Of a DNA stretch of 64,000 bases, positions 2,000 through 17,571 are shown in pieces. Source of the stretch: Rhodobacter sp. NTK016B (lineage in GTDB: Bacteria; Pseudomonadota; Alphaproteobacteria; Rhodobacterales; Rhodobacteraceae); the NCBI RefSeq assembly GCF_017303295.1, contig NZ_JAFKOK010000002.1, positions 310,001 through 374,000 of the forward strand, written 5' to 3'. Below the pieces are notes generated by a model. That model saw only the letters and a list, made by a program, of their open reading frames with translations. It did not search any database and was not told the DNA's origin. Made by a program: the position numbers and the translations under genes. Numbering within the stretch: position 1 is the first letter of the stretch; every line of letters starts with the position of its first letter.

Positions 2000-2055
2000 C
2001 TGTCTAGTCTGTTTTTGTGAAGGGCCGAGACAGGCCCAAGACAGGGAGAATCGCC

Positions 2056-2847: not shown

Positions 2848-2852
2848 CGCGC

Positions 2853-4415
2853 ATGGCGGCCGATCACGTCATCATCGGGTCCGGTATCAACGGGCTCGTC
2901 GCTGCGGCGCTGCTGGCGCTCAAGGGCCACAAGGTCACCGTTCTCGAACGCGAGGACCGGCTGGGTGGCTGTCTGATGACCGAGGCCGCGACGCTGCCCG
3001 GTTTTCAGCATGACGTGATGGCCGCGACATGGGTCTTGTTCATGACCTCGCCTGCAGGCGCGGCCTTGGGGCCGCATCTGGAGCGCCACGGGTTCGAATA
3101 TTGCCACAGCCCCCATCCCACCGCGGTGCTGCGCCCTGATGGCAGTGCGCTGGCGCTCAGCATGGACCCGGCGCGCAACCGCGCCGCGTTCAATGCGCTG
3201 GCCGAGGGCGACGGCGATCAGCACGCGGCGGATACCGGGCAGATCGGGGCCGATGCGCCCTTCCTGTTCGGGCTGCTGGGGGGCGAGCTGTGGTCATGGA
3301 GCACGGCGCGGCTGCTTTTCGGTCAGGTGCGCAAGCGCGGTCTGCGCGGGCTGGCCGCATGGATGGGGCAGGCGCTGGCCCCGGCGCGCGGCTGGCTGGA
3401 ATCGCGCTATCAGAGCCCTCTGGTGCAGGCCCTCTGGGCGCCATGGGTTCTGCATTGCGGGCTGACGCCCGAATCCACCTATTCGGCGCAGATGGGCAAG
3501 GTCATCGCCTTCGCGCTCGAGGCTGCGGGCGCGCCCGTGGTCAAGGGCGGCTCGGGCGCGGCGGTCGCGGCGTTCAAGTCGCTGATCGAAGCCCATGGCG
3601 GTACGTTCCGCACCGGCGCCGATGTCGCGAAGATCGAGGTCAGCGACAGCCGCGTGACCGGCGTGACGCTGACCAGCGGCGAGACGATCGCCGCGCGCTC
3701 GGTGCTGGCTTCGGTCGCGCCGGGGCAATTGTACGAGCGGCTTCTGCCCGATCAGCAACTGAGCCAAGAACGCGCCGCGCTGCCCGAATTCCGGCACGGG
3801 CGGGGCGATTTCCAACTTCATTTCGCGCTGGAACGCGCGCCGGAATGGCGCACCGAGGGGCTCGAAGACGTCGCACTCATCCACCTCTCGGACGGGATCG
3901 ACGCGGTGTCGAAATCCGCCAACGAGGCCGAGCGCGGGCTGTTCCCCGAAACGCCCACCATCTGCGTGGGTCAGCCCTCGCGCCTTGACCCGACGCGCTG
4001 CCCCGAGGGCAAGGCGATCCTGTGGCTGCAGATCCCCGATGCGCCGCGCACCATCAAGGGCGATGCCGCAGGCCAGATCGCGGGCACAGCGTGGGACGAA
4101 ACCACGCGCGAGGCCTTCGCGGACCGGATCGAAGGCATTCTTGCCCGCCACATCAAGGATTTCGACCAGATCAAGCTGGCCCGCCGCGCCTATTCGCCGG
4201 CGGATCTGGAAGCGCTCAATATCAACCTTGTGGGCGGCGATCCCTATGGCGGGCATTGCGGCATTGACCAATTCTTTATCTGGCGTCCCTTCGCGCATTC
4301 CACCAACGGGGTTGGTCCTGTTCGCGGCCTGATCCATATCGGCGCCTCGACGCATCCGGGGCCGGGCCTTGGCGGCGGATCGGGTTTCAACGCGGCGAAA
4401 AGGCTGGGGGCATGA
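2853..4415 (+). CDS. FAD-dependent oxidoreductase, phytoene-desaturase-like (second copy)
   Basis: A 520-residue flavoprotein. It opens with a dinucleotide-binding motif (HVIIGSGINGLVAAALL, residues 5-21), followed by LEREDRLGGCLMTEAATLPG, and ends with the FAD segment GASTHPGPGLGGGSGFNAAKR. It has the same length and the same block order as the divergent protein at 390-1952, so the two are paralogues. There is no strong ribosome-binding site; the start lies five bases after the cyclase stop, which suggests translational coupling. The stop overlaps the MarR start (ATGA). The reaction is probably oxidation or desaturation of an organic substrate; which one is unknown. Confidence 0.8.
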   Translation: MAADHVIIGSGINGLVAAALLALKGHKVTVLEREDRLGGCLMTEAATLPGFQHDVMAATWVLFMTSPAGAALGPHLERHGFEYCHSPHPTAVLRPDGSALALSMDPARNRAAFNALAEGDGDQHAADTGQIGADAPFLFGLLGGELWSWSTARLLFGQVRKRGLRGLAAWMGQALAPARGWLESRYQSPLVQALWAPWVLHCGLTPESTYSAQMGKVIAFALEAAGAPVVKGGSGAAVAAFKSLIEAHGGTFRTGADVAKIEVSDSRVTGVTLTSGETIAARSVLASVAPGQLYERLLPDQQLSQERAALPEFRHGRGDFQLHFALERAPEWRTEGLEDVALIHLSDGIDAVSKSANEAERGLFPETPTICVGQPSRLDPTRCPEGKAILWLQIPDAPRTIKGDAAGQIAGTAWDETTREAFADRIEGILARHIKDFDQIKLARRAYSPADLEALNINLVGGDPYGGHCGIDQFFIWRPFAHSTNGVGPVRGLIHIGASTHPGPGLGGGSGFNAAKRLGA

Positions 4416-4882
4416 GCGATCAAGGAAAACGACCAACGCGGCTGGGCGAAACGGGGCTGGAAGGCTTCGCGCCCTATCTGATGAACCGCATCATGGGCCG
4501 CTATAACGCCGAGGTGCGCGCGGCTCTGGGCCAGAACGGATTGTCCACGCCGAAGATGCGCGCGCTGGCGGTGCTGTCGGTGGTCCCCGCGCCGCTGATC
4601 CGCGAACTGGCGGTCTATGCCGTTACCGAACAATCGACGCTGAGCCGGGCGCTGGATCAGCTTGAGGCCGATGGCCTTGTGCGGCGCGAAGCCGATGCCA
4701 GCGACAGCCGCGCCACGCGCATCCATATCACTACTGCCGGTCTGGCCGTGTTCGAAGGCCTGTGGCCTCACATGACCGACGCGCAGGAAACCATGTTCCG
4801 GGACATCTCGGACGATGAGCGGCAGGCCTTTCTGGGCACGCTGCAGAAGATGCTGCGCAACATCCGCAAGCACGAGTTCTGA
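4412..4882 (+). CDS. MarR family transcriptional regulator
   Basis: A 156-residue winged-helix regulator. The DNA-binding core reads TEQSTLSRALDQLEADGLVRREADASDSRATRIHIT in pieces across residues ~70-108, the usual MarR recognition helix and wing. Such dimers normally repress catabolic operons and release DNA when a phenolic or other small ligand binds. It overlaps the preceding FAD gene by four bases and so belongs to that operon. The palindromes at 1980-1993 in the divergent promoter are a likely operator. The ligand is probably the substrate of the surrounding pathway (inference). Confidence 0.9.
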   Translation: MSDQGKRPTRLGETGLEGFAPYLMNRIMGRYNAEVRAALGQNGLSTPKMRALAVLSVVPAPLIRELAVYAVTEQSTLSRALDQLEADGLVRREADASDSRATRIHITTAGLAVFEGLWPHMTDAQETMFRDISDDERQAFLGTLQKMLRNIRKHEF

Positions 4883-4909
4883 CCCATCCAGCCCCGAAGG
4901 GACCCTGCC

Positions 4910-5497
4910 ATGAAGACCCTTGTAGCCACCGCTTGCCTGACGGCTCTGGCCCTGCCCGCCATCGCCGACCCGATGCCGGGGATGCGCGGGGTCAATCATA
5001 TCGGCCTGACAGTGCCGGATCTGGATCAGGCCGAGGGTTTCTTTTCCGAGGTTCTGGGCTGCGAGCGGGCGATGGCCTTCGGGCCGTTCCGCGACGACGA
5101 GGGAACCTTCATGCAGGACCTGCTGGGCGTCGATCCGCGCGCAGTGGTCAACCAGATCCGCATGCTGCGCTGTGGGTTTGGCAGCAATATCGAGCTGTTC
5201 AGCTATGACGCGCCCGATCAGACCGTGATCGAGCAACGCAACAGCGACATCGGCGCCTATCACATCGCCTTTTATGTCGACGATATCGATGCCGCCGCAG
5301 CCTATCTGCGCGACGCGGGCATACAGACGAATATGGGGCCGCTGCCGGTCACCGATGGTCCCGCTGCAGGGCAGAGCATCCTGTATTTCTCGGCGCCCTG
5401 GGGGTTGCAGTTCGAAGCGATCTCGTTCCCCGAGGGCATGGCATACGAACACGAGGGCGGCCCGATCCTGTGGTCGAACACCGCCCCCTCGGAATAA
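4910..5497 (+). CDS. Exported VOC (glyoxalase/dioxygenase fold) protein
   Basis: A 195-residue protein with a Sec-type signal peptide (MKTLVATACLTALALPAIA) followed by one VOC domain of two half-modules: GVNHIGLTVPDLDQAEGFF and AYHIAFYVDDIDAAAAYL. Candidate metal ligands are the His of NHIG, the Glu of NIELF, the His of AYHIA and the Glu of LQFEAIS, matching the usual H/E/H/E arrangement. VOC enzymes are normally cytoplasmic, so an exported one in a catabolic operon is unusual. It lies between the MarR gene and the indolepyruvate-type oxidoreductase genes on the same strand. It could be an extracytoplasmic isomerase, dioxygenase or binding protein. Confidence 0.82.
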   Translation: MKTLVATACLTALALPAIADPMPGMRGVNHIGLTVPDLDQAEGFFSEVLGCERAMAFGPFRDDEGTFMQDLLGVDPRAVVNQIRMLRCGFGSNIELFSYDAPDQTVIEQRNSDIGAYHIAFYVDDIDAAAAYLRDAGIQTNMGPLPVTDGPAAGQSILYFSAPWGLQFEAISFPEGMAYEHEGGPILWSNTAPSE

Positions 5498-5517
5498 GAC
5501 GGAACGGGTAGAACATC

Positions 5518-7680
5518 ATGGCGGAACGGTCCTTCAAAGCCGAAGTCCAGCATCTGCGGCTGGGCGCGGGTGAGACCTTCACCGGCGAGGGGATCCTTGC
5601 GATCACCAAGGCGCTGCTGGAAAACGGGGTCGGCTATGTCGGCGGCTATCAGGGGGCACCGATCAGCCACCTGATGGACGTTCTTGCCGATGCCGAGGAA
5701 TTGCTGGGCGAGCTGGATGTCCGCTTCGAGGCCAATGCCTCGGAAGCAGCAGCAGCGGCGATGCTGGCGGCCTCGGTGCATTATCCGATCCGGGGGGCCG
5801 TGACCTTCAAGGGGCCGGTGGGTGTGAACGTCGCCTCCGACGCGCTGGCCAACCTCGCCTCGTCGGGCGTGACCGGCGGCGCGCTTATCATCGTCGGCGA
5901 GGATTACGGCGAAGGCTCAAGCATCATGCAGGAACGCAGCCACGCCTTTGCGATGAAGTCGCAGTTCTGGCTGCTGGACCCGCGCCCCAACCTGCCCTCG
6001 ATCGTCAAGGCGGTGGGCGACGGGTTCGAACTGTCGGAAGCCTCCAACACCCCCGTCATGCTGATGGTGCGGATCCGCGCCTGCCACGTCACCGGCCAGT
6101 TCGAGACCAGCGACAACAAGCGCCCCACGCTCAGCGTGCGCGATGCGCTGGCGACACCGCAGCGCGATGTCTCGCGCATCGTGCTGCCGCCGATGAGCTA
6201 CGCGCAGGAACACGACAAGATCGACAACCGCTGGCCCGCCGCCGAGCGCTTCATCCGCGAACACAAGCTGAACGAGGTGTTCGGGCCAAGCACGGCGCCG
6301 GTCGGCATCGTCTGTCAGGGCGGCATGTATAACGGCGTGATCCGCGCGCTGCAGCGGATGGGGCTGGCCGATCTCTATGGCCAGACGCAGGTGCCGATCT
6401 ATTGCCTCAACGTGACCTACCCGCTGCTGCCCGACGAATTCGCCGAATTCTGCGAGGGCAAGGACGCGGTGCTGGTGGTCGAAGAGGGCCAGCCCGAATT
6501 CATCGAACAGGCCTATGCCACGATGATGCTGCGCTCGGGCTCGACCACGCGGCTGCACGGCAAGGACATCTTCCCGATGGTCGGCGAATATACCGGCGCG
6601 GTCATGAAAGAAGCGTTCGAGACCTTCCTTCGCCAGCACGCGCCCGACCTGCTGCCCGCGCAGGTTCTCGCGCCCAATACCGAAGCCCCGGCGATCCCGG
6701 ACCTGTCCAAGACCGTGCCGATCCGTCCGCCCGGCTTCTGCACCGGCTGCCCCGAACGCCCGATCTTCGCGGCGATGAAGCTGGTGCAGCAGGAGCTGGG
6801 CGAACACCAGATCAGCGCCGATATCGGCTGCCACCTGTTCGCCAGCCTGCCGCCGTTCAATATCGGCGGCGCGACGATGGGCTACGGTCTGGGCCCGGCC
6901 TCGAACGCGGCCTTCGACGGCGGCAAGAAAGGGGGCGCCGAGAAGCGCTCGATCGCGGTGATCGGCGATGGCGGGTTCTGGCATAACGGCCTGACCTCGA
7001 GCTTCGGTAACATGGCGTTCAACAAGTCCGACGGGGTCGCGGTGATCGTCGACAACTACTACTCAGCCGCGACCGGCGGGCAGGACATCCCCTCGTCCCG
7101 CGCCAAGAACCCGACCAAGGCCACCAATAACCCGATTTCGAAGGCCCTTAGGGGCATCGGCATCGACTGGGTGCGGCAGGTCGACCGGACCTATGACGTG
7201 GCCGGGATGCGCGACATCCTGCGCGACGCGCTGACCACAGAAAGCGAAGGGCCGAAAGTCATCGTCGCCTCGTCGGAATGCATGCTCAACAAGCAGCGCC
7301 GCGAAAAGCCCCTGCGGGCCGCCGCGATGCGCGAGGGGCGCCGTGTCGAGGTGCCGCGCTTCGGTGTCGATGAAAGCGTCTGTACGGGCGACCATGCCTG
7401 TATCCGGCTGTCCGGCTGCCCGTCGCTGTCGCTAAAACGGCTGGACGATCCGCTGCGCGACGATCCCGTCGCCTCGATCGACACGTCCTGCGTGGGCTGC
7501 GGCAATTGCGGCGAGGTGTCGGAAGCCGCCGTGCTCTGCCCGTCATTCTACGAGGCCCGCGTGGTCCATAATCCCGGCCCGTGGGAGCGCCGCCTGAACG
7601 GCTGGCGCCAAGGCCTGATCGGCTGGCTGGCCCGCCGCCGCCAGTCCCGCCAGCTCGGTTTCAGCGAGGTTCAGCCATGA
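5518..7680 (+). CDS. iorA: Indolepyruvate ferredoxin oxidoreductase-like alpha subunit
   Basis: A 720-residue thiamine-diphosphate enzyme. The N-terminal pyrimidine-binding part has GYVGGYQGAPISHLMD (~residue 45) and FKGPVGVNVASDALANLASSG in overlapping segments; the central part has RPPGFCTGCPERPIF; the diphosphate-binding motif is GDGGFWHNGLTSSFGNMAF followed by DNYYSAATGGQ. The C-terminus has a ferredoxin-like domain with CTGDHAC, SGCPS, CVGCGNCGEV and a final CPS. Family enzymes oxidatively decarboxylate aryl-2-oxo acids to acyl-CoA and pass electrons to ferredoxin. The first Fe-S motif is spaced unlike a standard CxxCxxCxxxC, which I understand also occurs in long IorA relatives. It overlaps iorB by ATGA. 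The actual oxo acid substrate is unknown. Confidence 0.88.
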   Translation: MAERSFKAEVQHLRLGAGETFTGEGILAITKALLENGVGYVGGYQGAPISHLMDVLADAEELLGELDVRFEANASEAAAAAMLAASVHYPIRGAVTFKGPVGVNVASDALANLASSGVTGGALIIVGEDYGEGSSIMQERSHAFAMKSQFWLLDPRPNLPSIVKAVGDGFELSEASNTPVMLMVRIRACHVTGQFETSDNKRPTLSVRDALATPQRDVSRIVLPPMSYAQEHDKIDNRWPAAERFIREHKLNEVFGPSTAPVGIVCQGGMYNGVIRALQRMGLADLYGQTQVPIYCLNVTYPLLPDEFAEFCEGKDAVLVVEEGQPEFIEQAYATMMLRSGSTTRLHGKDIFPMVGEYTGAVMKEAFETFLRQHAPDLLPAQVLAPNTEAPAIPDLSKTVPIRPPGFCTGCPERPIFAAMKLVQQELGEHQISADIGCHLFASLPPFNIGGATMGYGLGPASNAAFDGGKKGGAEKRSIAVIGDGGFWHNGLTSSFGNMAFNKSDGVAVIVDNYYSAATGGQDIPSSRAKNPTKATNNPISKALRGIGIDWVRQVDRTYDVAGMRDILRDALTTESEGPKVIVASSECMLNKQRREKPLRAAAMREGRRVEVPRFGVDESVCTGDHACIRLSGCPSLSLKRLDDPLRDDPVASIDTSCVGCGNCGEVSEAAVLCPSFYEARVVHNPGPWERRLNGWRQGLIGWLARRRQSRQLGFSEVQP

Positions 7681-9215
7681 CACTGCCCTTCACCCCGGAA
7701 CAGCCCCTCGCCTCGGCGGGGGACGTGATCAAGCTGGCCGTCATGGCGGTCGGCGGTCAGGGCGGCGGCGTCCTGACCGGCTGGATCGAGGCGCTGGCCC
7801 GCGCGCAGGGCTACGCGGTTCAGGCGACCTCGGTCGCGGGCGTGGCGCAGCGCACCGGCGCGACGATCTATTACATCGAGATGGCGCCCGCCGGGTCGTC
7901 GGCCCCGGTCTTTTCGCTGGCCCCGGCGGCGGGCGACGTGGACGTGGTGATCGCCGCCGAGATGATGGAGGCGGGCCGCGCGATCATGCGGGGCTTCGTT
8001 ACGCCCGACCGCACTACGCTGATCGGTTCGACCCACCGCGCGCTGGCGGTGAGCGAGAAGATGGCGCCGGGGGACGGCATCGCCGACGCGGACGAAGTTC
8101 GTGCGGCGGCCGAGGTCGCGGCGCGCGGGCTGGTGCTGGCGGACTTCGAGGCCGCAGCGCTCGATGTGGGCTCGGTCATCTCGGCCAGCCTGTTTGGCGC
8201 GCTGTCGGGATCGGGCGCCCTGCCCTTCCCGCCCGAGGCCTTCGAGGCCGCGATCCGCGCAGGCGGCAAGGGGGTCGATGCCTCGCTGCGCGCCTTTGCC
8301 GCCGGACGGCAGGCGGCCCTTGCCGGGGTTCAGCCCGCCACGCATCCGATGCCCGGCACTGCCGCTGCCGCTGCCCCAAGCGGCCCCGCCCGGCTGCGCA
8401 AGGCATGGGACGACCTGCAGGCGCGCATCGCGGCGCTTCCCGCCCCGGTGCAGCCGATGGCGCAGGCCGGTCTGCGCAAGGTGGTGGATTTCCAGCATCC
8501 GGCATACGGCGCCGAATATCTCGACCGTCTGGACAAGGCGCTGGCGGTCGACCGGGCCGAGCGGGACTGGACCCTGTCGGTGACGGCCGCGAAATACCTT
8601 GCCAATGCGATGGCCTATGACGACGTGATCCGCGTGGCCGATGCCAAGACCCGGCCCGAACGGCTGGACCGCATCCGCGCCGAGATGGGCGGGGCCGAGG
8701 TCATGCAGCTGACCGAATACACCCATCCCCGCGCCGAAGAGATCGTGAGCCTGCTGCCGCGAGCGCTGAGTCAGGCGATCACCGACCGGCCCCGGCTGAT
8801 GGGCTGGATCGACCGGCGCGTGAACAAGGGACGCAGGCTGCGCACCGACCGACTGCTGCCGTTCCTGCAATTGCACGCGCTGGCGTCGATGCGGCGCTTT
8901 CGTCCGATGAGCCTGCGCCACGCTGAAGAGCGCGCGCATCTGGAAACGTGGTATGCCAGCGCGCTTGCGCGGGCGGGGACGGATTACGATCTGGCCGTCG
9001 CCACACTACAGGCGCGGCGGCTGATCAAGGGTTATTCCGACACCCATGCGCGCGGTCTGGGCAAGTTCGACCGGGTGATGACCGGGATCGCGCGGGTCGA
9101 GGGGCGCGAGGATGCCGCCGACTGGGCGCGCCGCCTGATGACCGCCGCCCTGCAGGACGAAGAAGGCAGTGCGCTGGACGGGACGCTGAAGACCATCGAA
9201 AGCTTCGCCGCCTGA
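7677..9215 (+). CDS. iorB: Indolepyruvate oxidoreductase beta subunit, long form
   Basis: A 512-residue partner of the preceding alpha subunit. The start at 7677 overlaps the iorA stop by four bases; the in-frame ATG at 7581 lies deep inside iorA and is rejected. Residues ~15-190 form the pyruvate oxidoreductase gamma-type domain (KLAVMAVGGQGGGVLTGWI, then SVAGVAQRTGATIYYIEM). The remaining ~300 residues are the helical C-terminal extension typical of long IorB proteins, which classical archaeal IorB (~200 residues) lacks. Together the subunits should form a 2-oxoacid:ferredoxin oxidoreductase acting on an intermediate of the surrounding pathway. Confidence 0.87.
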   Translation: MTLPFTPEQPLASAGDVIKLAVMAVGGQGGGVLTGWIEALARAQGYAVQATSVAGVAQRTGATIYYIEMAPAGSSAPVFSLAPAAGDVDVVIAAEMMEAGRAIMRGFVTPDRTTLIGSTHRALAVSEKMAPGDGIADADEVRAAAEVAARGLVLADFEAAALDVGSVISASLFGALSGSGALPFPPEAFEAAIRAGGKGVDASLRAFAAGRQAALAGVQPATHPMPGTAAAAAPSGPARLRKAWDDLQARIAALPAPVQPMAQAGLRKVVDFQHPAYGAEYLDRLDKALAVDRAERDWTLSVTAAKYLANAMAYDDVIRVADAKTRPERLDRIRAEMGGAEVMQLTEYTHPRAEEIVSLLPRALSQAITDRPRLMGWIDRRVNKGRRLRTDRLLPFLQLHALASMRRFRPMSLRHAEERAHLETWYASALARAGTDYDLAVATLQARRLIKGYSDTHARGLGKFDRVMTGIARVEGREDAADWARRLMTAALQDEEGSALDGTLKTIESFAA

Positions 9216-9224
9216 GCGCCCGGC

Positions 9225-9986
9225 TCAGCGGCCGCCCCGCACCCGCCCGATGCTCAGCGCGCTCTGGCGCAGGATATCGAGCACCCGGTCCAGCCGCGCA
9301 GGGTCGTCGAAGGCGTTGACCGAAGCCGTGGTGGCCAGCACGAAGGGCGTCTGTCCCAGCGCGCCCACCGGCACCGCCACGCCCGCCGCGCCCAGCTCGA
9401 ACTCGTCGCGGGCGATGCAATAGCCCTGCTCGCGCGCGGCCTCAATGGCGGCGCGCAGACGCTCGGGGGCGGTTTCGGTCGCCTCGCTGTAGCGCGGGGC
9501 GGGCCGGGCGGCGAGGGCCGCGTCCAGCACCTCGGGTCCCGAGCGCGCCAGCAGCATCCGTCCGACCGCCGTATGCAGAAGCGGCAGCGTGCTGCCGATC
9601 CCGAAGCCCAGCGTGACACGGGCCGAGGCAGGGGCCGCGCGGTCGACATAGACCGCCTGCAGCCGGTCGCGGGTGGCCAGCGCCACTTCCATGTCCAGCT
9701 CTTCCGCCGCGTGGCGCAGGATGGGCTGCACGACGCGCCCGACCTCCAGCCCGCCCAGATAGCCGCCCGCCAGCGTCAGCACCCGGGGCGCAAGCCGCAG
9801 GCCCGTTTCGCCCTCTTCCAGATACCCACAGCGCGTCAGCGTCAGGCAGAGCCTGCGCACCACGGCGCGGTCCAGCCCGGAGCGCCGCGTGATCTCTGGC
9901 AGGGTCAGGTTCTGCGCGCTCTGCTCGAAACAGGCCAGCACGTCGAGCCCCTTGGCAAGGGTCGCGGCGAAATCGCGATCGCTCAT
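9225..9986 (-). CDS. IclR family transcriptional regulator
   Basis: A 253-residue regulator. Residues ~10-70 form the winged helix-turn-helix (KGLDVLACFEQSAQNLTLPE, then SGLDRAVVRRLCLTL) and the rest is the IclR ligand domain (GFGIGSTLPLLHTAVGRMLLA, in part; RDEFELGAAGVAVPV; ATTASVNAFDDP). It most resembles the PcaR/PobR branch that controls aromatic catabolism. The ATG at 9986 is preferred over an in-frame GTG at 10019 because GGGAG sits upstream of the ATG, and the GTG would place the start within the operator palindromes. It diverges from the Rieske oxygenase operon and probably controls it through the inverted repeats at 10017-10048. Confidence 0.9.
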   Translation of the reverse strand: MSDRDFAATLAKGLDVLACFEQSAQNLTLPEITRRSGLDRAVVRRLCLTLTRCGYLEEGETGLRLAPRVLTLAGGYLGGLEVGRVVQPILRHAAEELDMEVALATRDRLQAVYVDRAAPASARVTLGFGIGSTLPLLHTAVGRMLLARSGPEVLDAALAARPAPRYSEATETAPERLRAAIEAAREQGYCIARDEFELGAAGVAVPVGALGQTPFVLATTASVNAFDDPARLDRVLDILRQSALSIGRVRGGR

Positions 9987-10016
9987 TTGACAGGTCTCCC
10001 GCGCTCTGGCAAAGTT

Positions 10017-10048
10017 CACATATCGCCCACTATGTGCGATTATCGCAC
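10017..10048. promoter_or_regulatory. Overlapping inverted repeats, candidate IclR operator
   Basis: The 86-bp gap between the IclR start and the Rieske gene contains two inverted repeats. CACATA at 10017-10022 pairs with TATGTG at 10031-10036, and GTGCGAT (10034-10040) pairs with ATCGCAC (10042-10048) around a single T. The second is a perfect 15-bp palindrome. Their position between divergent regulator and target operon fits an autoregulated IclR operator. Confidence 0.55.
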
Positions 10049-10072: not shown

Positions 10073-10474
10073 ATGCCACCCTCCGACACCGCCGCGGACG
10101 GTTGGGTCCAGATCGCCACCAGCGCCGATCTGGATCGCCCGCGCCCGCTGATCCCCCTGACGCTGCAAGGCCGCAGGCTCGTGCTGTTTCGCGATGAAGA
10201 GGGGCAGCTGGGCCTGATCGGCCGTCATTGTCCGCATCGCGGCGCGGACCTGTGCTATGGTCGGCTGGAAGATAACGGCCTGCGCTGTCCGTTCCACGGC
10301 TGGCATTTCGACCGGACCGGCCAATGCGTCGAACAACCGGCCGAACCCGAAGGCTCGCGCATGCACGAACAGATCCGCGTGCCGATGGTGCCGGTAAAAG
10401 AAGAGAATGGCGCGATCTGGGCGCAGGTGGGCGCGGAACTGGAACGGGCAGCAGCATCGGAGGCAAACGCATGA
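10073..10474 (+). CDS. Small Rieske [2Fe-2S] protein, split-off domain of a ring-hydroxylating oxygenase
   Basis: A 133-residue protein that is essentially one Rieske domain. The cluster ligands are visible as C53-P-H55 and C72-P-F-H75, separated by 16 residues as in Rieske oxygenases. The text around them (VLFRDEEGQLGLIGRHCPHR, YGRLEDNGLRCPFHGWHF, CVEQPAEPEGS) is that of the large subunit of phthalate-dioxygenase-type enzymes rather than of a typical stand-alone Rieske ferredoxin. The start is the ATG at 10073 behind GGGGAG; an in-frame GTG at 10034 falls in the operator. It overlaps the catalytic subunit gene (ATGA). It probably shuttles electrons to, or assembles with, that ligand-less subunit. 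Confidence 0.88.
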   Translation: MPPSDTAADGWVQIATSADLDRPRPLIPLTLQGRRLVLFRDEEGQLGLIGRHCPHRGADLCYGRLEDNGLRCPFHGWHFDRTGQCVEQPAEPEGSRMHEQIRVPMVPVKEENGAIWAQVGAELERAAASEANA

Positions 10475-11691
10475 TCAGCCAGCACCTGAACGACCGGATC
10501 ACCCGCATCGCGCCGGGCACGCCCGCAGGTACGGTGCTGCGCCAATACTGGCAGCCCGCCGCGCTGGTCGATGAACTGGCGCACGGCCCGCTTGTGCCCG
10601 TGAACCTGCTGGGCGAACGGCTGGTTCTGCGGCAGGGCGCGCAGGGGCTGGAGCTGGCGACGCGCGTGGCCTCGCCCGACGAAGCCCCCACGCATTACCC
10701 CGCCTCGGACGCGATCCAGATCGATCCCGATGGCCCGGTTTATCCGACCGAGACCCGCGCGGGCCTGATCTTTGCCTATCTGGGCGACGGGGCGCCGCCG
10801 CCCTTCCCCGCTTTCGACTGTTTCCGCGCGCCCGAAAGCCATGTCTTCGCCTTTAAGGGTCTGTGGGAATGCAACTGGCTGCAGGCGCTGGAAATCGGCA
10901 TCGACCCGGCGCATGCCTCGTTCCTGCACCGGTTTCTCGAAGACGAGGATCCCGCCGACAGCTATGGCAAACAGTTCCGCGACAAGGCGGGCGCGACCGA
11001 CATCCCGATGACGAAGCTGTTGCGCGACTATCCGCGCCCTGAGATCAAGGTCGATGAGACCGATTACGGCCTGAAGATCACCGCGCTCCGACACATGGAA
11101 AACGGTCATACCCATGTCCGTGTCACCAATCAGATCTTCCCCGAGGCGATCTGCATCCCCATGTCGCGCGAGATGACGATCACCCAGTGGCACGTCCCTG
11201 TCGATGACGAGACCTGTTACTGGGTCACCGTCTTTACCAGTTTCGACAAGCCCGTGAACAAGGAGGTCATGCGCGCGCAGCGGCTCAAAGAGCATCGGCT
11301 GCCCGATTACGCGCCGCTGAAGAACCGCCGCAACGATTACCATTACGACCCCGCCGAACAGGCCTCGCTGACCTATACGGGCATGGGGCTGGACATCAAC
11401 GTGCATGACCAGTGGGCGGTCGAGGGCATGGGGGCCATTCAGGACCGCACGCAGGAGCATCTGGGCCGCTCGGACGTGGCGATCATCCGCTATCGGCGGA
11501 TGTTGCGGCGGATGATGGATGCGGTGGAACAGGGCGATTTCTCGGCGCTGCCGATGCATGGCGACGGCGCTGCGGCGATCATGGGCCCCTTGTCGAACGA
11601 CGCCATTGCCGAAACAGCGGATTGGCAGGCCTCCAGCCGCGCCACCGACCGCGCGCGCCGCGTGGCCTGCCCCTGGAACGCGACGGTGTGA
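10471..11691 (+). CDS. Ring-hydroxylating oxygenase catalytic subunit lacking Rieske ligands
   Basis: A 406-residue protein. It begins like a phthalate-dioxygenase-type alpha subunit (residues ~1-50: RIAPGTPAGTVLRQYWQPAA, LLGERLVL). The segment that should hold the Rieske cluster (about residues 53-95) is short and has no CxH or CxxH. The catalytic domain is intact: E141, D145, H148 and H153 fit the E-x3-D-x2-H-x4-H mononuclear iron motif, and conserved blocks continue (VTNQIFPEAICIP, ITQWHVPVDDETCYWVTVF). Electrons must come from another protein, most plausibly the Rieske protein encoded immediately upstream with a four-base overlap. No reductase gene is nearby. Substrate unknown. Confidence 0.85.
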   Translation: MISQHLNDRITRIAPGTPAGTVLRQYWQPAALVDELAHGPLVPVNLLGERLVLRQGAQGLELATRVASPDEAPTHYPASDAIQIDPDGPVYPTETRAGLIFAYLGDGAPPPFPAFDCFRAPESHVFAFKGLWECNWLQALEIGIDPAHASFLHRFLEDEDPADSYGKQFRDKAGATDIPMTKLLRDYPRPEIKVDETDYGLKITALRHMENGHTHVRVTNQIFPEAICIPMSREMTITQWHVPVDDETCYWVTVFTSFDKPVNKEVMRAQRLKEHRLPDYAPLKNRRNDYHYDPAEQASLTYTGMGLDINVHDQWAVEGMGAIQDRTQEHLGRSDVAIIRYRRMLRRMMDAVEQGDFSALPMHGDGAAAIMGPLSNDAIAETADWQASSRATDRARRVACPWNATV

Positions 11692-11693
11692 GC

Positions 11694-13142
11694 ATGGACG
11701 GAGCGATCAAGGGCGCGCTGTTCGAGCGCGGATTGCTGAGCGAGAATCAGGCACGCGCGGGCGCGGAACTGGCCGCGCGCGTGGTCGCCGACGGGTTCGA
11801 AACCGTGCGCGTGCTGTTCGCCGATCAGCACGGCATCCTGCGCGGCAAGACGATTACCGCCCGGACGCTCGGCTCGGCGCTGGCTGCCGGGCTGTCGGTG
11901 CCCTCGACGCTGATCCTGAAGGACACCGCGCATCGCACCGTGTTCGACGTGTGGAAAAACGGCCTGACGCTGGACGGCGTGTCGCTGTCGGGCGCGGGCG
12001 ATCTGCTGCTGGTCCCCGATCCCGGCACCTTTACCCCGCTGCCATGGTCGCCGCATTCCGCCGTCATCCTGTGCGATCTGGCCTATCGCTCGGGCCAGCG
12101 CGTCTCGGTCTCGTCGCGCGGCGTGCTGCGGCGGGCGATGGACGGCCTTGCGCGCACCGGACATGACGCGGTGATGGGGCTGGAGGTCGAATTTCAGGTC
12201 TTCTCGGTCAGCGATGACGGGCTTGCCCACGATCAGGCCACCATGCCGCCCGCGGCGCTCACGACCCGCAACACCACGCAGGGCTGGGCCTTTCTGACCG
12301 AAACACGCTACGGCGCGGTCGAGCCACTGATGGACGAACTGCGCCGCGCGGCCGAGGCGATGGGCCTCGCGCCCCGTTCGATGGAAATCGAGATGGGGCC
12401 CAGCCAGTTCGAATTCACCTTCGATGCCTCGGACCCGATGGTTCAGGCCGACCGCTTCGTGCTGTTCCGCATGATGGTGAAAGAGATCTGCCAGAGGCAG
12501 GGCCTGCATGCCAGCTTCATGCCCAAGCCGCGCGTCGCGAATGCGGTGGCGAATGGCTGGCATATCCATCAATCGCTGGTCTCGCGCGAAACCGGGCACA
12601 ATGTCTTCACCCCGGGCGAAGACGGCACGCCCACGCTCGAAGCCGGGGCGTGGATCGCCGGTCTGCTCGACCACGCGCCTGCCACCTGCCTGCTGACCAA
12701 CCCTACGATCAACGGCTACAAGCGCTTCAGCGCCTTCCAGCTGGCGCCCAACCGCGTGCAATGGGGTACCGACAATCGCGGCGCCATGCTGCGCGCGCTG
12801 TTCCAGCCGGGCGACCCTGCCGCGCGGATCGAGAACCGCGTCGCCGATACCGCTGCCAACCCCTATTACGCGCTGGCCGGGCAGATCCTGTCGGGGCTCG
12901 ACGGTCTCAATCGCGGTGCCACGCCCCCGCCGCCCACGCTGACGCCCTATGCCGAGGATCAGACGCATCTTCCCGCCACGCTGGAGGCCGCCGTTCACGC
13001 ATTCGAGGCCAGCCCGCTTTATGCGCAGACCCTGGGCGAAGATTTCGTGCGATATCTTGCGCATCTCAAACGGGCGGAATGGGCGCGCTACCTGTCCACG
13101 GTGTCGGAATGGGAACAGGCCGAGTATTTCAACCTGTTCTGA
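11694..13142 (+). CDS. Glutamine synthetase-like gamma-glutamyl ligase
   Basis: A 482-residue type-I-like glutamine synthetase relative. Visible blocks are RVLFADQHGILRGK (N-terminal beta-grasp), GLEVEFQVF (metal/ATP site), MEIEMGPSQFEFTF, NGWHIHQS, NPTINGYKRF, NRVQWGTDNRGAMLR and ENRVADTAANPYYALAG. The sequence departs from GlnA in a way usual for ligases that join glutamate to amines rather than ammonia (PuuA, IpuC and aniline-type enzymes). The ATG at 11694 lies three bases after the oxygenase stop; a GTG at 11688 overlapping that stop is the alternative. Co-transcription with a Rieske oxygenase recalls aniline pathways, where the amine is glutamylated before oxygenation. The amine substrate is not identifiable. 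Confidence 0.85.
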   Translation: MDGAIKGALFERGLLSENQARAGAELAARVVADGFETVRVLFADQHGILRGKTITARTLGSALAAGLSVPSTLILKDTAHRTVFDVWKNGLTLDGVSLSGAGDLLLVPDPGTFTPLPWSPHSAVILCDLAYRSGQRVSVSSRGVLRRAMDGLARTGHDAVMGLEVEFQVFSVSDDGLAHDQATMPPAALTTRNTTQGWAFLTETRYGAVEPLMDELRRAAEAMGLAPRSMEIEMGPSQFEFTFDASDPMVQADRFVLFRMMVKEICQRQGLHASFMPKPRVANAVANGWHIHQSLVSRETGHNVFTPGEDGTPTLEAGAWIAGLLDHAPATCLLTNPTINGYKRFSAFQLAPNRVQWGTDNRGAMLRALFQPGDPAARIENRVADTAANPYYALAGQILSGLDGLNRGATPPPPTLTPYAEDQTHLPATLEAAVHAFEASPLYAQTLGEDFVRYLAHLKRAEWARYLSTVSEWEQAEYFNLF

Positions 13143-13152
13143 AAGGCCTGCA

Positions 13153-13809
13153 ATGACCGATCTGCGCATCGAAGGCCTTCCCGTCGCCGGGCGGTTTTTC
13201 GAGGATATCATCGACGGCTATTTCCCCCTGCGCGAAAGCCTGCGTCAGGGACTGCAACGCAATGGCTTCGGCGCAGCGCTGGTGGTGATGTCACATGCGC
13301 CGATCCTGCATCTGCCCGGGGATGACGGGCAGGGTCCGGTGCCGATGCGCTTGCAAGCGGCCCGTGCCGGCGTGTTGCGCTCGTTCCTCGGGCTGGCGGT
13401 GATCGCGGGCAACGACATGCGGCTGGTGGGCGCGGGCGACTGGGTCTGGCCCGGCGCAGCGCATGGCATGACCCCCGACACAAGGCTTGCCGAACCCGCC
13501 TTTCTGCGCGGGATCGGGCTGCTACCCGGGCCGGTGAACGGCGGAGTGTTCGGGCGGGTTCTGCGCGATGAAAGCTCGGGCCTGTCTCTGGGCGCGGGGA
13601 CCGGCTCAGCGGGTGAGCGCTGGGGCTTCACCCGTCTCCCCGGCGGAATCGAGCGGCACGAGGGCCTGCTGGTCGCGCCCGGTTACGCCGACGGAGGCGA
13701 TGGGCCGATGCTGTCGGTGGAAACGGGTATATCCGGGCACGGCTTGGCCTCAACCCTGATGGCGCGGGATCTGGCGGCGGGACGAAACTGGCGGGCGGCC
13801 CCGGCCTAG
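13153..13809 (+). CDS. Hypothetical protein, last gene of the Rieske/ligase operon
   Basis: A 218-residue protein I do not recognise. It has no signal peptide, transmembrane helix or obvious cofactor motif. It opens with RIEGLPVAGRFFEDIIDGYF and has blocks such as HAPILHLPGDDGQGPVPMRL and GIGLLPGPVNGGVFGRVLRD. It follows the ligase stop by ten bases with an AAAGG-type ribosome-binding site, so it belongs to that operon. Base composition matches its neighbours. The last bases of this gene and of mgdD overlap: one CTAG supplies both TAG stops. A role in the same pathway is likely from position; no reaction can be assigned. Confidence 0.75.
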   Translation: MTDLRIEGLPVAGRFFEDIIDGYFPLRESLRQGLQRNGFGAALVVMSHAPILHLPGDDGQGPVPMRLQAARAGVLRSFLGLAVIAGNDMRLVGAGDWVWPGAAHGMTPDTRLAEPAFLRGIGLLPGPVNGGVFGRVLRDESSGLSLGAGTGSAGERWGFTRLPGGIERHEGLLVAPGYADGGDGPMLSVETGISGHGLASTLMARDLAAGRNWRAAPA

Positions 13810-14351
13810 CCCTGCCGCCCGGCGATGGTCTCCAGCGCGTGCCACAGGCTTTCCGCAGCCGAGCGCATGCCCCAGATGCCCAGCCGATCCTCGGCCCGGC
13901 GCAGCACATAGGTGCCCAGATGCTCGATGGTGCTGCGCGTGGCATGGCCGGGGGCGAAGCGCGTCAGGTCGAGATTGACAGCACGTTCAAGGAAACGCTC
14001 AATCGGTTCAGCGCCGCCCGTCGAGCTGATCTCGAACAGCACCCAGCCATCCGTCTGTTCGGTGACCGAGGCACCGGGCGCGCGTTCGCCCAGCATCGCG
14101 GCGGCATCGACCTCGGCGCAGCCCGGCATTTCCACCAGCCATTGTCCCGGCCCCGTCCAGAACGCGGTCAGCCCGTCGGTTTCGTGCCATCTCCCCGGTT
14201 CCGGCAAGGGCAGCGACGGGGGCGGCGTGCCCGTGCGCAAAGCCAGCGAGGCAAGGCCGCAATCGGGCGTTTCGGCCAATGTCAGGGCGCCATGGGTCAC
14301 GCGGCGGGGCGCGGTGGCGCCCAGCGCGCAGAGGGGGGAAAGATCAGTCAC
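13806..14351 (-). CDS. mgdD: N-methylglutamate dehydrogenase, sarcosine oxidase gamma-like subunit
   Basis: A 181-residue SoxG-family protein. It starts with a GTG at 14351 that overlaps the mgdC stop by eight bases; a longer frame to 14672 exists only inside mgdC. Family blocks include FWTGPGQWLVEMPG, TEQTDGWVLFEISSTGG, ERFLERAVNLDL and RSTIEHLGTYVLRR. In heterotetrameric sarcosine oxidase the gamma subunit is structural and GcvT-like. Because it follows mgsABC-gmaS in order, I assign it to N-methylglutamate dehydrogenase, which splits N-methylglutamate into glutamate and a tetrahydrofolate-bound or free C1 unit. Confidence 0.85.
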   Translation of the reverse strand: MTDLSPLCALGATAPRRVTHGALTLAETPDCGLASLALRTGTPPPSLPLPEPGRWHETDGLTAFWTGPGQWLVEMPGCAEVDAAAMLGERAPGASVTEQTDGWVLFEISSTGGAEPIERFLERAVNLDLTRFAPGHATRSTIEHLGTYVLRRAEDRLGIWGMRSAAESLWHALETIAGRQG

Positions 14352-17283
14352 GCAGGCGCCCTCCTTCGGGATCGACGAAATGGCTGGGCACGACGCGCAA
14401 GGCGACCTCGCTGCCCTGAAGCGGGTTGGCGGCGGTGATGACCTCGCCCATGCGATCGGCCCCGTTTTGCAGGAAACCGAGCCCGATGGACGAGCCGACA
14501 TGCGGCGAATGGCAGGCCGAGGTGATCCAGCCCTGATCGTGGTCCAGATCGCGCGGCGCGCCCTCATCGAACAGATGCGAGCCGGGCACGACCACGTCCT
14601 TGGCATCGACCGGCTGCAGTCCGACAAGGATCCGCGTCTCGGCCGCCAGCCCGTCGCGCCGGGACATGACATTGCCGATCGCGTCTTTCTTCTTGGACAC
14701 CATCCGCCCCAGACCCAACATCTGCCCGGTGGTCTGGCCGTTCAGCTCGGCCCCGGCAGCGTGGCCCTTTTCGATCCGCATGACGCCCAGCGCCTCGGTC
14801 CCGTAAGGAGTGACGCCCATGTCCGCGCCCGCTTCCATAAGACGCGCCATCAGCGCATGGCCGTAGCGCGCAGGCACCGCCAGTTCGTAGGCCAGTTCGC
14901 CCGAGAACGAGATCCGGAACAGCCGCGCCCGCAGCCCGCCGCAGATCGTCAGCGGCGCGCAGGCCATAAAGGGAAAGGCCTCGTTCGACAGGTCGAAATC
15001 GTCGACCACACGGCTCAGCAAGTCGCGCGATTTCGGCCCCGCCACGGCGATCTGCGCCCAGGCGTCGGTGGTCGAGATCAGTTGCACATCCAGCTCGGGC
15101 CACAAGCATTGCCGGGCGAATTCCATGTTGCGATAGACCGGCCCCGCATTCGCGGTGGTGGTGGTGACGACGTAGTGATCCTCGGCCAGACGGGCGCAGG
15201 TGCCGTCGTCATAGGCGATGCCGTCCTCACGCAGCATGAGACCGTAGCGCACCATGCCGACCTTCAGGCTGGCCATCGCATTGGCATAGAGCCGGTCCAG
15301 AAAGACCCCGGCATCGGCGCCCTGCACATCGACCTTGCCCAAAGTAGTCACGTCGCACAGGCCCACGCCCGCGCGCACCGCCAGTACCTCGCGATCGACG
15401 GATTGGCGCCAATGCGTCTCGCCGGGGCGGGTGAAGTATTGCGCGCGCATCCACGGCCCGACCTCGACGAAGGTGGCGCCGTTCTCCTTGGCCCAGTGAT
15501 GCGTGGGGGTCAGGCGGCGGGGGCGGAAATGCGCGCCGGTATCGCCGCCACCCAGCACCCCCAGCGACACGCCGGTATAGGGCGGGCGGAAGATCGTCGT
15601 GCCGGTTTCGGGGATCGACTTGCCCGTCAGTTCCGCCATCACGGCCAGCGCGGTGACATTGGCCGTCTTGCCCTGATCGGTCGCCATGCCCAGCGTGGTC
15701 CAGCGCTTCAGATGCTCGACCGGGCGCATGTTTTCCTTGTGCGCCAAGGCGATGTCCTTGACCGTCACATCGTTCTGGAAATCGACCCAAGCGCGGCGCT
15801 TGCCGGGCACATGCCAGATCGGCGCGACGTTGTCGTGACGGGTCTCGGCCTGAGGCAGCGGAACAGTCGGCGCCGGAAGGCCCAGCTGCGCCAGCGCCTC
15901 GCCGGCGGCCCGCAAACCGTCGGCCAAAGCCTCGGCCGTGCTGCCCTGCCCGGCGCAGGCGCCTGCGGCGATCAGCCCCTCGGGTCCGCCCGCGCCCGGC
16001 ACGAAGGCCAGCTTGTCGGCATCCCAGACCGGCCGCCCGCGATGATGCGAGGCGAGATGGACATTCGGGTTCCAGCCGCCCGCGACGCCCAGCGCGCCCA
16101 CGGAAAGGGTCTCAGGGCCCGCCGACGTCTCGACGCTGATGGAATGCAGCCCCAGACGCCCCTTGGTGCCGACGAACTGCGCGCCCGCCATCAGCCGGTA
16201 TTCGCCCTGCGCCTGCACCCCGGCGCGTGCATCGATGACCGCAGCCACCGGCACGCCCCGCGCGATCAGGTCCGACGCAGTCCGGTGGCCGTCATCGTTA
16301 TTGGTGAAGATCGCCACCGGGGCCGCCGTACCCGGCGCCGCCGCCCAGCGATTGGCATAGGCCCGCATCGCGCCCGCCAGCATCACGCCGGGGCGGTCAT
16401 TGTCGGCAAAGGGGATGTGCCGCTCGGTCGCGCCGGCGGCAAGGATCGCGCGCTTGGCGGTGATCCGCCACAGCGTCTGGCGCACCGCACCGCCCGGCGT
16501 GGCAAGGTGATCCGACACCCGCTCGACCGCGCCGAACACGCCGTGATCGTAGACGCCGAACACCACCGTGCGGGGAAGGATGCGCACGTTCGGCAAGCTT
16601 TCCAGCTCAGCCCGGACCGTGTCGACCCATTCGACCGCCGGGGCGCCGTCGACTTGGTCGCTTTCGGCCAGCAGCCGCCCGCCCAGGCGAAAGTCCTCGT
16701 CCGCAAGGATCACCCGCGCGCCGGCCCGGCCTGCGGCCAGCGCCGCCATCAACCCGGCAGGACCGGCGCCGATGACCAAGAGATCCGCGTGAAGATAGCC
16801 GCGATCATAGGCATCGGGATCGGGAAGCTCGGACAGTTCCCCCAGCCCCGCCGCGCGACGAATAGCCGGCTCGTAGAGCTTTTCCCAGAAGGCGCGCGGC
16901 CACATGAAGGTCTTGTAATAGAACCCCGCCGCGAAGAAGGGCGACAGCAGATCGTTGACCGCCAGCAGATCGAAATTCAGCGGCCCCACATGGTTTTGCG
17001 AGCGCGCGACCAAACCGTCGTAAAGCTCGGCGACCGTGGCGCGCGTATTGGGTTCGGCGCGGGCGCCCTCGCGCAGGGTGACCAGCGCGTTGGGTTCCTC
17101 GGACCCCGCCGCAACGATCCCGCGCGGACGGTGATATTTGAAGCTACGACCTACCAGCCGCACGCCATTGGCCAGAAGCGCCGAGGCCAGCGTATCGCCG
17201 GGATGCCCCTGATAGCGCTTGCCGTCGAAGGTGAAGGACAGGGTGCGGCTGCGGTCGATCAGACCGCCGGGAAGCCGGGTCAT
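14344..17283 (-). CDS. mgdC: N-methylglutamate dehydrogenase, sarcosine oxidase alpha-like subunit
   Basis: A 979-residue SoxA-type protein, about the family's usual length. Residues ~15-90 form the N-terminal Fer2-like domain (GRSFKYHRPRGIVAAGSEEP). Residues ~165-500 are the FAD/NAD-binding domain (LLVIGAGPAGLMAALAAGRAG near 168). Residues ~580-970 are a GcvT-like folate-binding domain (GVGLCDVTTLGKVDVQG, GELAYELAVPARYGHALM, GYGTEALGVMRIEKGHA-like region). The stop overlaps mgdD and the start overlaps mgdB (ATGA). It should oxidise the N-methyl group with its partners and hand the C1 unit to tetrahydrofolate. Sarcosine oxidase proper is the alternative; gene context favours N-methylglutamate. 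Confidence 0.88.
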   Translation of the reverse strand: MTRLPGGLIDRSRTLSFTFDGKRYQGHPGDTLASALLANGVRLVGRSFKYHRPRGIVAAGSEEPNALVTLREGARAEPNTRATVAELYDGLVARSQNHVGPLNFDLLAVNDLLSPFFAAGFYYKTFMWPRAFWEKLYEPAIRRAAGLGELSELPDPDAYDRGYLHADLLVIGAGPAGLMAALAAGRAGARVILADEDFRLGGRLLAESDQVDGAPAVEWVDTVRAELESLPNVRILPRTVVFGVYDHGVFGAVERVSDHLATPGGAVRQTLWRITAKRAILAAGATERHIPFADNDRPGVMLAGAMRAYANRWAAAPGTAAPVAIFTNNDDGHRTASDLIARGVPVAAVIDARAGVQAQGEYRLMAGAQFVGTKGRLGLHSISVETSAGPETLSVGALGVAGGWNPNVHLASHHRGRPVWDADKLAFVPGAGGPEGLIAAGACAGQGSTAEALADGLRAAGEALAQLGLPAPTVPLPQAETRHDNVAPIWHVPGKRRAWVDFQNDVTVKDIALAHKENMRPVEHLKRWTTLGMATDQGKTANVTALAVMAELTGKSIPETGTTIFRPPYTGVSLGVLGGGDTGAHFRPRRLTPTHHWAKENGATFVEVGPWMRAQYFTRPGETHWRQSVDREVLAVRAGVGLCDVTTLGKVDVQGADAGVFLDRLYANAMASLKVGMVRYGLMLREDGIAYDDGTCARLAEDHYVVTTTTANAGPVYRNMEFARQCLWPELDVQLISTTDAWAQIAVAGPKSRDLLSRVVDDFDLSNEAFPFMACAPLTICGGLRARLFRISFSGELAYELAVPARYGHALMARLMEAGADMGVTPYGTEALGVMRIEKGHAAGAELNGQTTGQMLGLGRMVSKKKDAIGNVMSRRDGLAAETRILVGLQPVDAKDVVVPGSHLFDEGAPRDLDHDQGWITSACHSPHVGSSIGLGFLQNGADRMGEVITAANPLQGSEVALRVVPSHFVDPEGGRLRD

Positions 17284-17561
17284 GCCGTGCCCTCCTTGCG
17301 CGCCAGAGACACGTCGCGCGCCAGTTCGGCGCCGAGGATCTCATGCGTCAGCGTGTTGCGTGTCACCACCAGCCATGAGCGGTCGCCCTGTTCGTGGAAC
17401 CACAGCTCGCGGTGAAGGCCCGCCGGGTTGTCGCGCTGAAAGACATAGTCGGCCAGCTCTGCCTCGTCGCCGCTGGTCGGGCGTTCGATAAGCCGGGCAT
17501 CGCCGAGATAGGTGAATTCCTGCGCGTCGCGCAGACCGAGAAGAGGATGGGGGATCAGCAT
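17280..17561 (-). CDS. mgdB: N-methylglutamate dehydrogenase, sarcosine oxidase delta-like subunit
   Basis: A 93-residue SoxD-family protein starting at the ATG at 17561; upstream in-frame codons lie in mgdA. In true SoxD a zinc ion is held by a Cys-x2-Cys near the N-terminus and a His-x3-Cys later. Here the matching positions are H5 and L8 (MLIPHPLLGLRD), and H56 with D60 (WFHEQGDRSW), so three of four ligands are changed. The rest of the fold signature remains (EFTYLGDA, LVVTRNTLTHEI). It overlaps mgdC by four bases. The altered zinc site may mark the N-methylglutamate branch of the family. Confidence 0.87.
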   Translation of the reverse strand: MLIPHPLLGLRDAQEFTYLGDARLIERPTSGDEAELADYVFQRDNPAGLHRELWFHEQGDRSWLVVTRNTLTHEILGAELARDVSLARKEGTA

Positions 17562-17571
17562 GACGTCGCCC

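Follow-up and report, generated by a model that had tools for sequence, protein, structure and literature searches.

Two adjoining genes in the window, i.e., the whole 64,000-nucleotide stretch of Rhodobacter sp. NTK016B DNA analyzed here, are best explained as encoding a divided Rieske oxygenase with a small electron-carrying protein (RieskeS) and a separate catalytic subunit (CatL), and we put the probability of this reading as a whole at roughly two in three. Ordinary Rieske oxygenases have the Rieske cluster and the mononuclear iron in one chain, and the coupling of the two centers is therefore hard to vary. The split pair would amount to a natural experiment on the passage of electrons between subunits in which evolution uncoupled cluster from iron and left close one-chain relatives as controls, and it would make docking, electron-transfer gating, and reductase choice separately testable by mixing purified parts.

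RieskeS (133 aa) is encoded at 10073..10474 on the forward strand with an ATG at 10073, and its stop overlaps the start of CatL (406 aa; 10471..11691, forward strand) by four bases, ATGA. The cluster motifs that a preliminary description had read from the small protein are present in its translation as C53-P-H55 and C72-P-F-H75, and residues 11-93 match the Pfam Rieske family PF00355 with 73.0 bits (cut-off 20.3). CatL matches LigXa_C (PF19301) over residues 110-357 with 99.7 bits (cut-off 27) and, again as described before, keeps E141, D145, H148, and H153. Aligned with phthalate-dioxygenase-type enzymes, as had been suggested, RieskeS matches with its residues 11-126 the Rieske domain of 7fhr from Cupriavidus metallidurans, a one-chain oxygenase and its best PDB sequence match, while residues 3-59 and 91-358 of CatL align to its best PDB relative (9ina) and the skipped stretch is the cluster-binding tip. 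Together, the two proteins make up one ordinary alpha subunit in which the Rieske scaffold is present twice. The AF2 model of CatL (pLDDT 87.2) has the alpha-subunit fold of the phthalate and isophthalate dioxygenases of Comamonas testosteroni KF1 (7fjl/7v25 and 9ina/9ioy; Z 35.3-37.8 over 360-374 residues), e.g., with Z 37.8 over 374 residues for isophthalate dioxygenase 9ioy and Z 37.3 for 7v25. These enzymes and 7fhr carry both centers in one chain, unlike the split pair: CatL lacks the combination of cluster ligands and iron site that marks a one-chain alpha subunit, the ligands are found only in RieskeS, and the window sequence places two centers on two polypeptides as in the split chlorophyllide a oxygenase (CAO) of the Micromonas type. 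Sequence comparison marks CatL as closely related to one-chain oxygenases of the LigXa/phthalate-dioxygenase type, with the cluster tip lost and the iron motif kept, and places RieskeS among the Rieske domains of that family.

Three further genes belong to this setting. A glutamine-synthetase family ligase (11694..13142, forward strand; Gln-synt_C in Pfam, 264.8 bits) is a pathway neighbor of one-chain and split forms alike, and a divergent IclR/PcaR-type regulator (9225..10019, reverse strand; IclR_C in Pfam, 86.3 bits) is a possible local regulator. The third gene of the system (13153..13809, forward strand; 218 aa) is unclassified, and we propose it as a third subunit because of its co-occurrence with the split pair.

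In the following, "split" denotes RieskeS plus a tipless CatL and "one-chain" an orthologue with intact Rieske domain. The genome survey that the preliminary description had called for yielded 45 split rows with 38 distinct large proteins, mostly from Rhodobacteraceae. Among 292 genomes of the order, 38 had a CatL relative, comprising six of full split length, 30 of one-chain type (with the match beginning around residue 88 of CatL), and two distant ones. The family sample (394 genomes; the best few first-look candidates scored, up to four per genome) gave 62 matches, i.e., 10 split, 36 of one-chain type with 61-79% identity, and 16 distant, whereas the split form by match range was confined to the window's own genome among the 49 matches in 385 genomes of the class. 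Architecture in all three samples was read from the match range and checked on DNA in 45 split and 106 one-chain rows, with 1.5 kb of flank per side for loci from genome searches. None of the 10 split-form family genomes had a second CatL match at E 1e-20 among the up to four candidates scored in each.

RieskeS overlaps CatL or ends at most 67 nt before it in every one of the 45 split rows, 30 of which share the four-base ATGA overlap, and its ligand pattern C-x-H ... C-x2-H is always intact. Conversely, the lack of Rieske ligands in the large protein that had been noted for the window is general, and a hidden ligand set, which would have overturned the first interpretation, did not turn up: no C-x-H occurs within the first 130 residues of CatL in any of the 45 rows, and a lone C-x2-H in one of them (L105) is unrelated. 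A scan of 101 one-chain rows revealed no such small Rieske gene next to them; at least 600 nt of upstream sequence was available for 105 of the 106 one-chain rows.

For comparisons of neighborhoods, we used the best 80 of 568 confirmed matches (32 split and 48 one-chain; hereafter named loci), a choice that biases them to close relatives. Among these best 80, the split form is found in Pararhodobacter, Maritimibacter, Thalassobius, Roseobacter sp. GAI101, Shimia, Thalassovita, and Pseudooceanicola as well as in Mesorhizobium xinjiangense, Jiella pelagia, and metagenome-assembled genomes (MAGs) labelled SAR116 or Granulosicoccaceae, though such labels may be wrong. Two further split loci lie on plasmids, and in one of these (L207) the Rieske gene is missing from the gene table and readable in the DNA. 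A glutamine-synthetase gene is near 29 of the 32 split and 47 of the 48 one-chain named loci and a homologue of the IclR/PcaR-type regulator near 21 and 31, respectively (best 80 of 568). The one-chain relatives, which come from Rhodobacteraceae and other Alphaproteobacteria (e.g., Mameliella, L112, or Phaeobacter, L138), thus share the glutamine-synthetase neighbor with the split form, and differ from it by an intact Rieske domain and by having no small Rieske gene or third gene seen adjacent. The split pair is a conserved, general architecture and not a product of decay. Two split loci (L117 and L121) carry extra Rieske-like genes with 31-42% identity to RieskeS.

In a tree of the catalytic domain, one branch (SH-aLRT 99) sets off all 38 split rows from the 86 one-chain rows among which they are nested. 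This tree was built by a quick method from 124 rows with identical stretches merged, the region that differs between the forms omitted, and four rows (L055, L069, L071, and L156) excluded for too short a catalytic stretch. It is midpoint-rooted, with several long-branched one-chain rows, and since distant alphaproteobacterial one-chain rows sit across the midpoint root, the one-chain form is most simply ancestral; a single split event would be all that the tree needs. The corresponding Rieske tree, to which we added four Rieske proteins of the window's own genome, likewise unites the 38 RieskeS rows in one group (support 99) within the one-chain Rieske domains, though on few columns and with the own-genome rows on long branches. 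At the site of the old first ligand pair, the CatL of Tateyamaria sp. Alg231-49 (L014 and L093) has R-H-C-P, a leftover of the lost tip, and tandem duplication followed by complementary loss would be the simplest route to the pair. Estimates of dN/dS for 13 chosen pairs range from 0.04 to 0.22 in the tipless N-terminal part of CatL, from 0.04 to 0.15 in its catalytic part, and from 0.05 to 0.32 in RieskeS. In the third gene, of which the first 130 aligned codons were used, they range from 0.17 to 0.39 (11 pairs, with two values not computable). These ratios indicate purifying selection on all three genes.

How the separated parts might work together is suggested by the pattern of their conservation, which we compared in the 32 split and 43 of the 48 one-chain named loci, selected by length from the best 80 of 568 matches. 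Mean identity in the cluster-binding tip is 86% between RieskeS and one-chain proteins and 88% among the latter, while for the Rieske scaffold the corresponding values are 42-43% and 72-77%. Occupancy of the tip region is 39% in the split large proteins and 100% in the one-chain proteins of this set, and the catalytic part has a mean identity of 76% within each group and 72% between them. Mere cluster binding can be rejected as the reason for the conserved tip because four other Rieske domains of the same genome, used as a control, have a tip identity of only 27-52% to a one-chain member. E141, D145, H148, and H153 are invariant in all 75 of these rows together with N135 and Q138, and the iron motif E-x3-D-x2-H-x4-H with its bridging Asp is complete in all 32 split rows of the best 80. 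We take D145 to be the bridge from the cluster of the neighboring subunit to the iron ligand and D325 to be the third iron ligand of CatL; the latter is replaced by Asn in two of the 32 split proteins among the best 80 of 568 matches, i.e., those of a Planktomarina MAG (L105) and a Granulosicoccaceae MAG (L108). This pattern suggests most simply that the RieskeS tip continues to meet the same catalytic surface while the scaffold was freed from its old contacts.

In Rieske oxygenases, according to the available text of PMC12445004, electrons cross between neighboring subunits and insertion of the Rieske domain makes the contact. By analogy, the conserved tip of RieskeS would insert into the site vacated in the CatL assembly and one of its cluster histidines (H55 or H75) would reach D145/H148 and pass electrons on to the mononuclear iron, mimicking the Rieske domain of the neighboring subunit in an ordinary trimer. 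RieskeS cannot occupy the exact place of the old domain since CatL keeps its own Rieske scaffold. The earlier idea that the step from Rieske cluster to iron takes place between two gene products is still the best reading, which we infer from co-occurrence, from the conserved tip, and from the invariance of the bridging Asp. The third protein would most likely be a structural subunit that holds or caps the assembly and replaces the lost covalent link, and electrons would reach RieskeS from lineage-specific donors.

This third protein has no Pfam or NCBIfam match, its homologues likewise lack Pfam matches, its best hit among PDB sequences is not significant (E 1.6), and on two plasmids it is annotated as "hypothetical protein". 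Its tie to the split form is strict throughout the material surveyed, and a protein without a family thereby gains a likely role. Both tblastn and HMM searches found homologues in all 32 split named loci, directly after CatL in 14 and after glutamine synthetase in the other 18, and in none of the 48 one-chain ones (best 80 of 568). For 39 of these 48, the downstream sequence covered at least 2.5 kb; absence of the gene is less telling for the nine with less. Both plasmid loci carry the gene as well (HMM E 3e-60 and 7e-51). A 33-row profile, with up to seven candidates scored per genome, detected it in 10 of the 394 family genomes, which are the same 10 that have the split CatL and on the same contigs, and in one of the 385 class genomes, i.e., the window's own. 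Genomes with the third gene share ancestry and are not independent events, and the one-chain genomes of the same family serve as a matched control. Because the third gene was seen in none of the 48 one-chain named loci, 47 of which have the glutamine-synthetase neighbor and 39 of which cover at least 2.5 kb downstream, it tracks the split architecture and not the pathway.

The AF2 model of the third protein (pLDDT 90.9, pTM 0.88) shows a weak likeness to the PPC fold over about residues 11-124. Its best seven VIA matches, i.e., the PPC protein 2dt4 and six others, reach Z 5.0-5.8 with an rmsd of 3.0-3.6 over 93-100 residues, which the tool rates as "middling" and which is lower than models lacking a true match usually score; we take 2h6l, 2hx0, 2nmu, 3hwu, 3htn, and 2p6y to have the PPC/DUF296 fold. 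Foldseek gave E-values of about 1.0e-3 to 2.6e-2 (none at or below 0.001) and TM-scores of 0.20-0.36 by model length. There is no detectable sequence relation to go with this likeness: none of the 33 members of the third-protein family matches PF03479 (DUF296), HHalign against 23 DUF296 rows returned a probability of 0.04%, and we therefore rejected membership in DUF296 by sequence. A remnant of a Rieske or catalytic domain was also discarded because HHalign found no similarity, and the Pfam beta-subunit family of Rieske oxygenases matched none of the 33 members. Invariant residues of the family are G22, F24, R36, P50, V63, G73, W97, R111, L112, E114, P115, and G120, with no His or Cys conserved at 85%, which makes a metal or cluster in this protein unlikely. 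Crystal structures suggest that prokaryotic PPC proteins are trimers, according to the available text of PMC4209074. Rieske oxygenases form trimers as well, and a symmetric scaffold is thus attractive as a proposal. A literature search found no PPC protein tied to a split Rieske oxygenase.

With regard to electron supply, the preliminary description had stated that no reductase gene is near. This holds for reductases of the PF00970 kind, of which the genome has seven and the 64-kb window none, but not for the split form in general. The two plasmid loci (Pseudooceanicola algae and Palleronia) have, upstream of the Rieske gene of the split oxygenase and divergent from it, genes for an FAD oxidoreductase and a flavodoxin (L207:5009-6627 and L208:5671-7312); on the Palleronia plasmid, a regulator gene lies in between. 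Homologues of the FAD protein are near 7 of 32 split and 0 of 48 one-chain named loci and those of the flavodoxin near 8 and 0, respectively; the available flanks of the remaining 25 split loci contain no FAD-protein homologue, with at least 2 kb of upstream sequence in 29 of the 32 split and 46 of the 48 one-chain loci (best 80 of 568). The seven loci with both genes fall into a single supported subclade, whose ten rows include L100 and L104 with neither gene, and the eighth flavodoxin belongs to a SAR116 locus (L114). Nearest PDB relatives are adrenodoxin reductase/FprA for the FAD protein and cindoxin, a partner of P450 enzymes, for the flavodoxin. Searched for reductases of other kinds with one FAD protein and one flavodoxin as queries, the window's own genome gave nothing beyond weak matches (27%, 38%, and 32% identity), and we rejected a flavodoxin chain for it on these grounds. 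Given the patchy FAD/flavodoxin pair, these weak matches, and the seven PF00970 genes, the donor probably differs between lineages: in part of one subclade, RieskeS would probably be fed by a flavoprotein resembling adrenodoxin reductase together with a cindoxin-like flavodoxin, and in the window's organism by some other reductase. A flavodoxin as natural donor would be unusual. Typical partners of Rieske oxygenases are a reductase or ferredoxin (available text of PMC12445004), and when E. coli flavodoxin and its reductase were supplied to CAO in vitro, no product could be detected (available text of PMC9615114).

Not all of these data demand a stable complex. RieskeS could be a mobile Rieske ferredoxin in transient contact with CatL, comparable to the Rieske ferredoxin that serves the diiron oxygenase of toluene 4-monooxygenase, and its being small and free, the divergence of its scaffold around a conserved tip, and the occurrence of donor genes near some split loci and not others speak for such a carrier; a fixed complex agrees better with the four-base gene overlap and with the constancy of the third gene, although neither is decisive, and on balance we regard the mobile carrier as rather unlikely. 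Similarly, the third gene might encode a pathway enzyme outside the oxygenase, given that acetolactate decarboxylases are among the weaker fold matches of its product (Z 3.1-3.6) and that more than half of the split named loci have it after glutamine synthetase instead of directly after CatL. It was however seen in none of the 48 one-chain named loci (39 of them with at least 2.5 kb downstream) in spite of their nearly universal glutamine-synthetase gene, directly follows CatL in the other split loci, and encodes no conserved His or Cys, so that we consider such an enzyme unlikely.

Far less probable is that CatL has become a cluster-independent iron enzyme that is no longer an oxygenase, with RieskeS serving another enzyme. 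The lack of cluster ligands and the two D325 replacements would be in line with this, but RieskeS adjoins CatL in all 45 split rows, D145 is invariant, and the catalytic part is as conserved among split as among one-chain proteins. As for a frameshift, deletion, assembly artefact, or decay in one strain, the R-H-C-P remnant in Tateyamaria sp. Alg231-49 is what one could cite in its favor. The pair recurs across genomes with 38 distinct large sequences, is found on a complete chromosome (L100) and on complete plasmids, and has dN/dS far below 1 in the chosen pairs, and this explanation, which the preliminary description had named as its possible undoing, is effectively ruled out. Within the preferred reading of a divided oxygenase, a bolder version is tentative and on the doubtful side: a new heteromeric class with three CatL, three RieskeS, and a PPC-like trimer of the third protein in one particle. 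There, the third protein would act as scaffold that positions the detached Rieske subunits over the catalytic sites, and the freed Rieske module would have let lineages swap donors, some of them taking up a P450-type reductase and flavodoxin.

The alga Micromonas already provides a two-chain Rieske oxygenase, to which the bacterial case adds an unclassified protein and, for some members of one subclade, a flavodoxin chain. In the chlorophyllide a oxygenase of Micromonas pusilla (MpCAO), the cluster reportedly lies in one chain and the iron in the other (said to be from work by Kunugi in 2013). Toluene 4-monooxygenase has a small Rieske ferredoxin that hands electrons directly to a non-heme diiron oxygenase; this enzyme is a diiron hydroxylase, and RieskeS instead derives from an oxygenase domain. 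According to the available text of PMC9615114, MpCAO consists of two polypeptide chains, which had earlier been suggested to form a heterodimer, and is active in vitro with electrons from the reductase VanB. It is thus like the window pair in having two chains and unlike it in being eukaryotic, in acting on another substrate, and in that the available text of its description names no third protein (PMC9615114). The window pair also belongs to another subfamily, the nearest relatives that we found being one-chain enzymes of the LigXa type. Our literature search found no description of a bacterial split Rieske oxygenase.

Neighborhoods of the oxygenase vary by lineage and include an auxin-locus-like block or genes for ureidoglycolate lyase or hydantoinase. 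The first of these lies in the window at 2017-9215 and comprises a cyclase-like hydrolase, which we take to be isatin-hydrolase-like, an FAD oxidoreductase, MarR, a VOC protein, and indolepyruvate oxidoreductase alpha/beta. It resembles the iad (auxin) loci as far as these are described in the available text of PMC9613470, and IadD/IadE are an oxygenase (available text of PMC10374108). We rejected an auxin (IAA) pathway for the oxygenase, and assign it to no pathway, since homologues of the genes in this upstream block were seen close to no more than 1-3 of the 32 split and 0-1 of the 48 one-chain named loci (best 80 of 568). Part of a related auxin-locus-like block adjoins the oxygenase in the one-chain locus L137. 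Seven of the 48 one-chain loci among the best 80 of 568 (L122, L127, L134, L138, L143, L147, and L148) have a ureidoglycolate-lyase-like gene (27-33% identity) some 4-7 kb upstream, and hydantoinase-like genes are near the split loci L087 and L208. As a lead, these neighbors hint at an N-heterocyclic substrate, e.g., in purine or hydantoin catabolism. On the reverse strand of the window, genes for sarcosine-oxidase-like subunits occupy 13806-18822, with gamma recognized by match and alpha and beta by eye. Elsewhere in the same genome (contig C75, 230782-231969; L006 and L009) there is a second, clearly different LigXa-type oxygenase (420 bits) with an in-frame Rieske domain.
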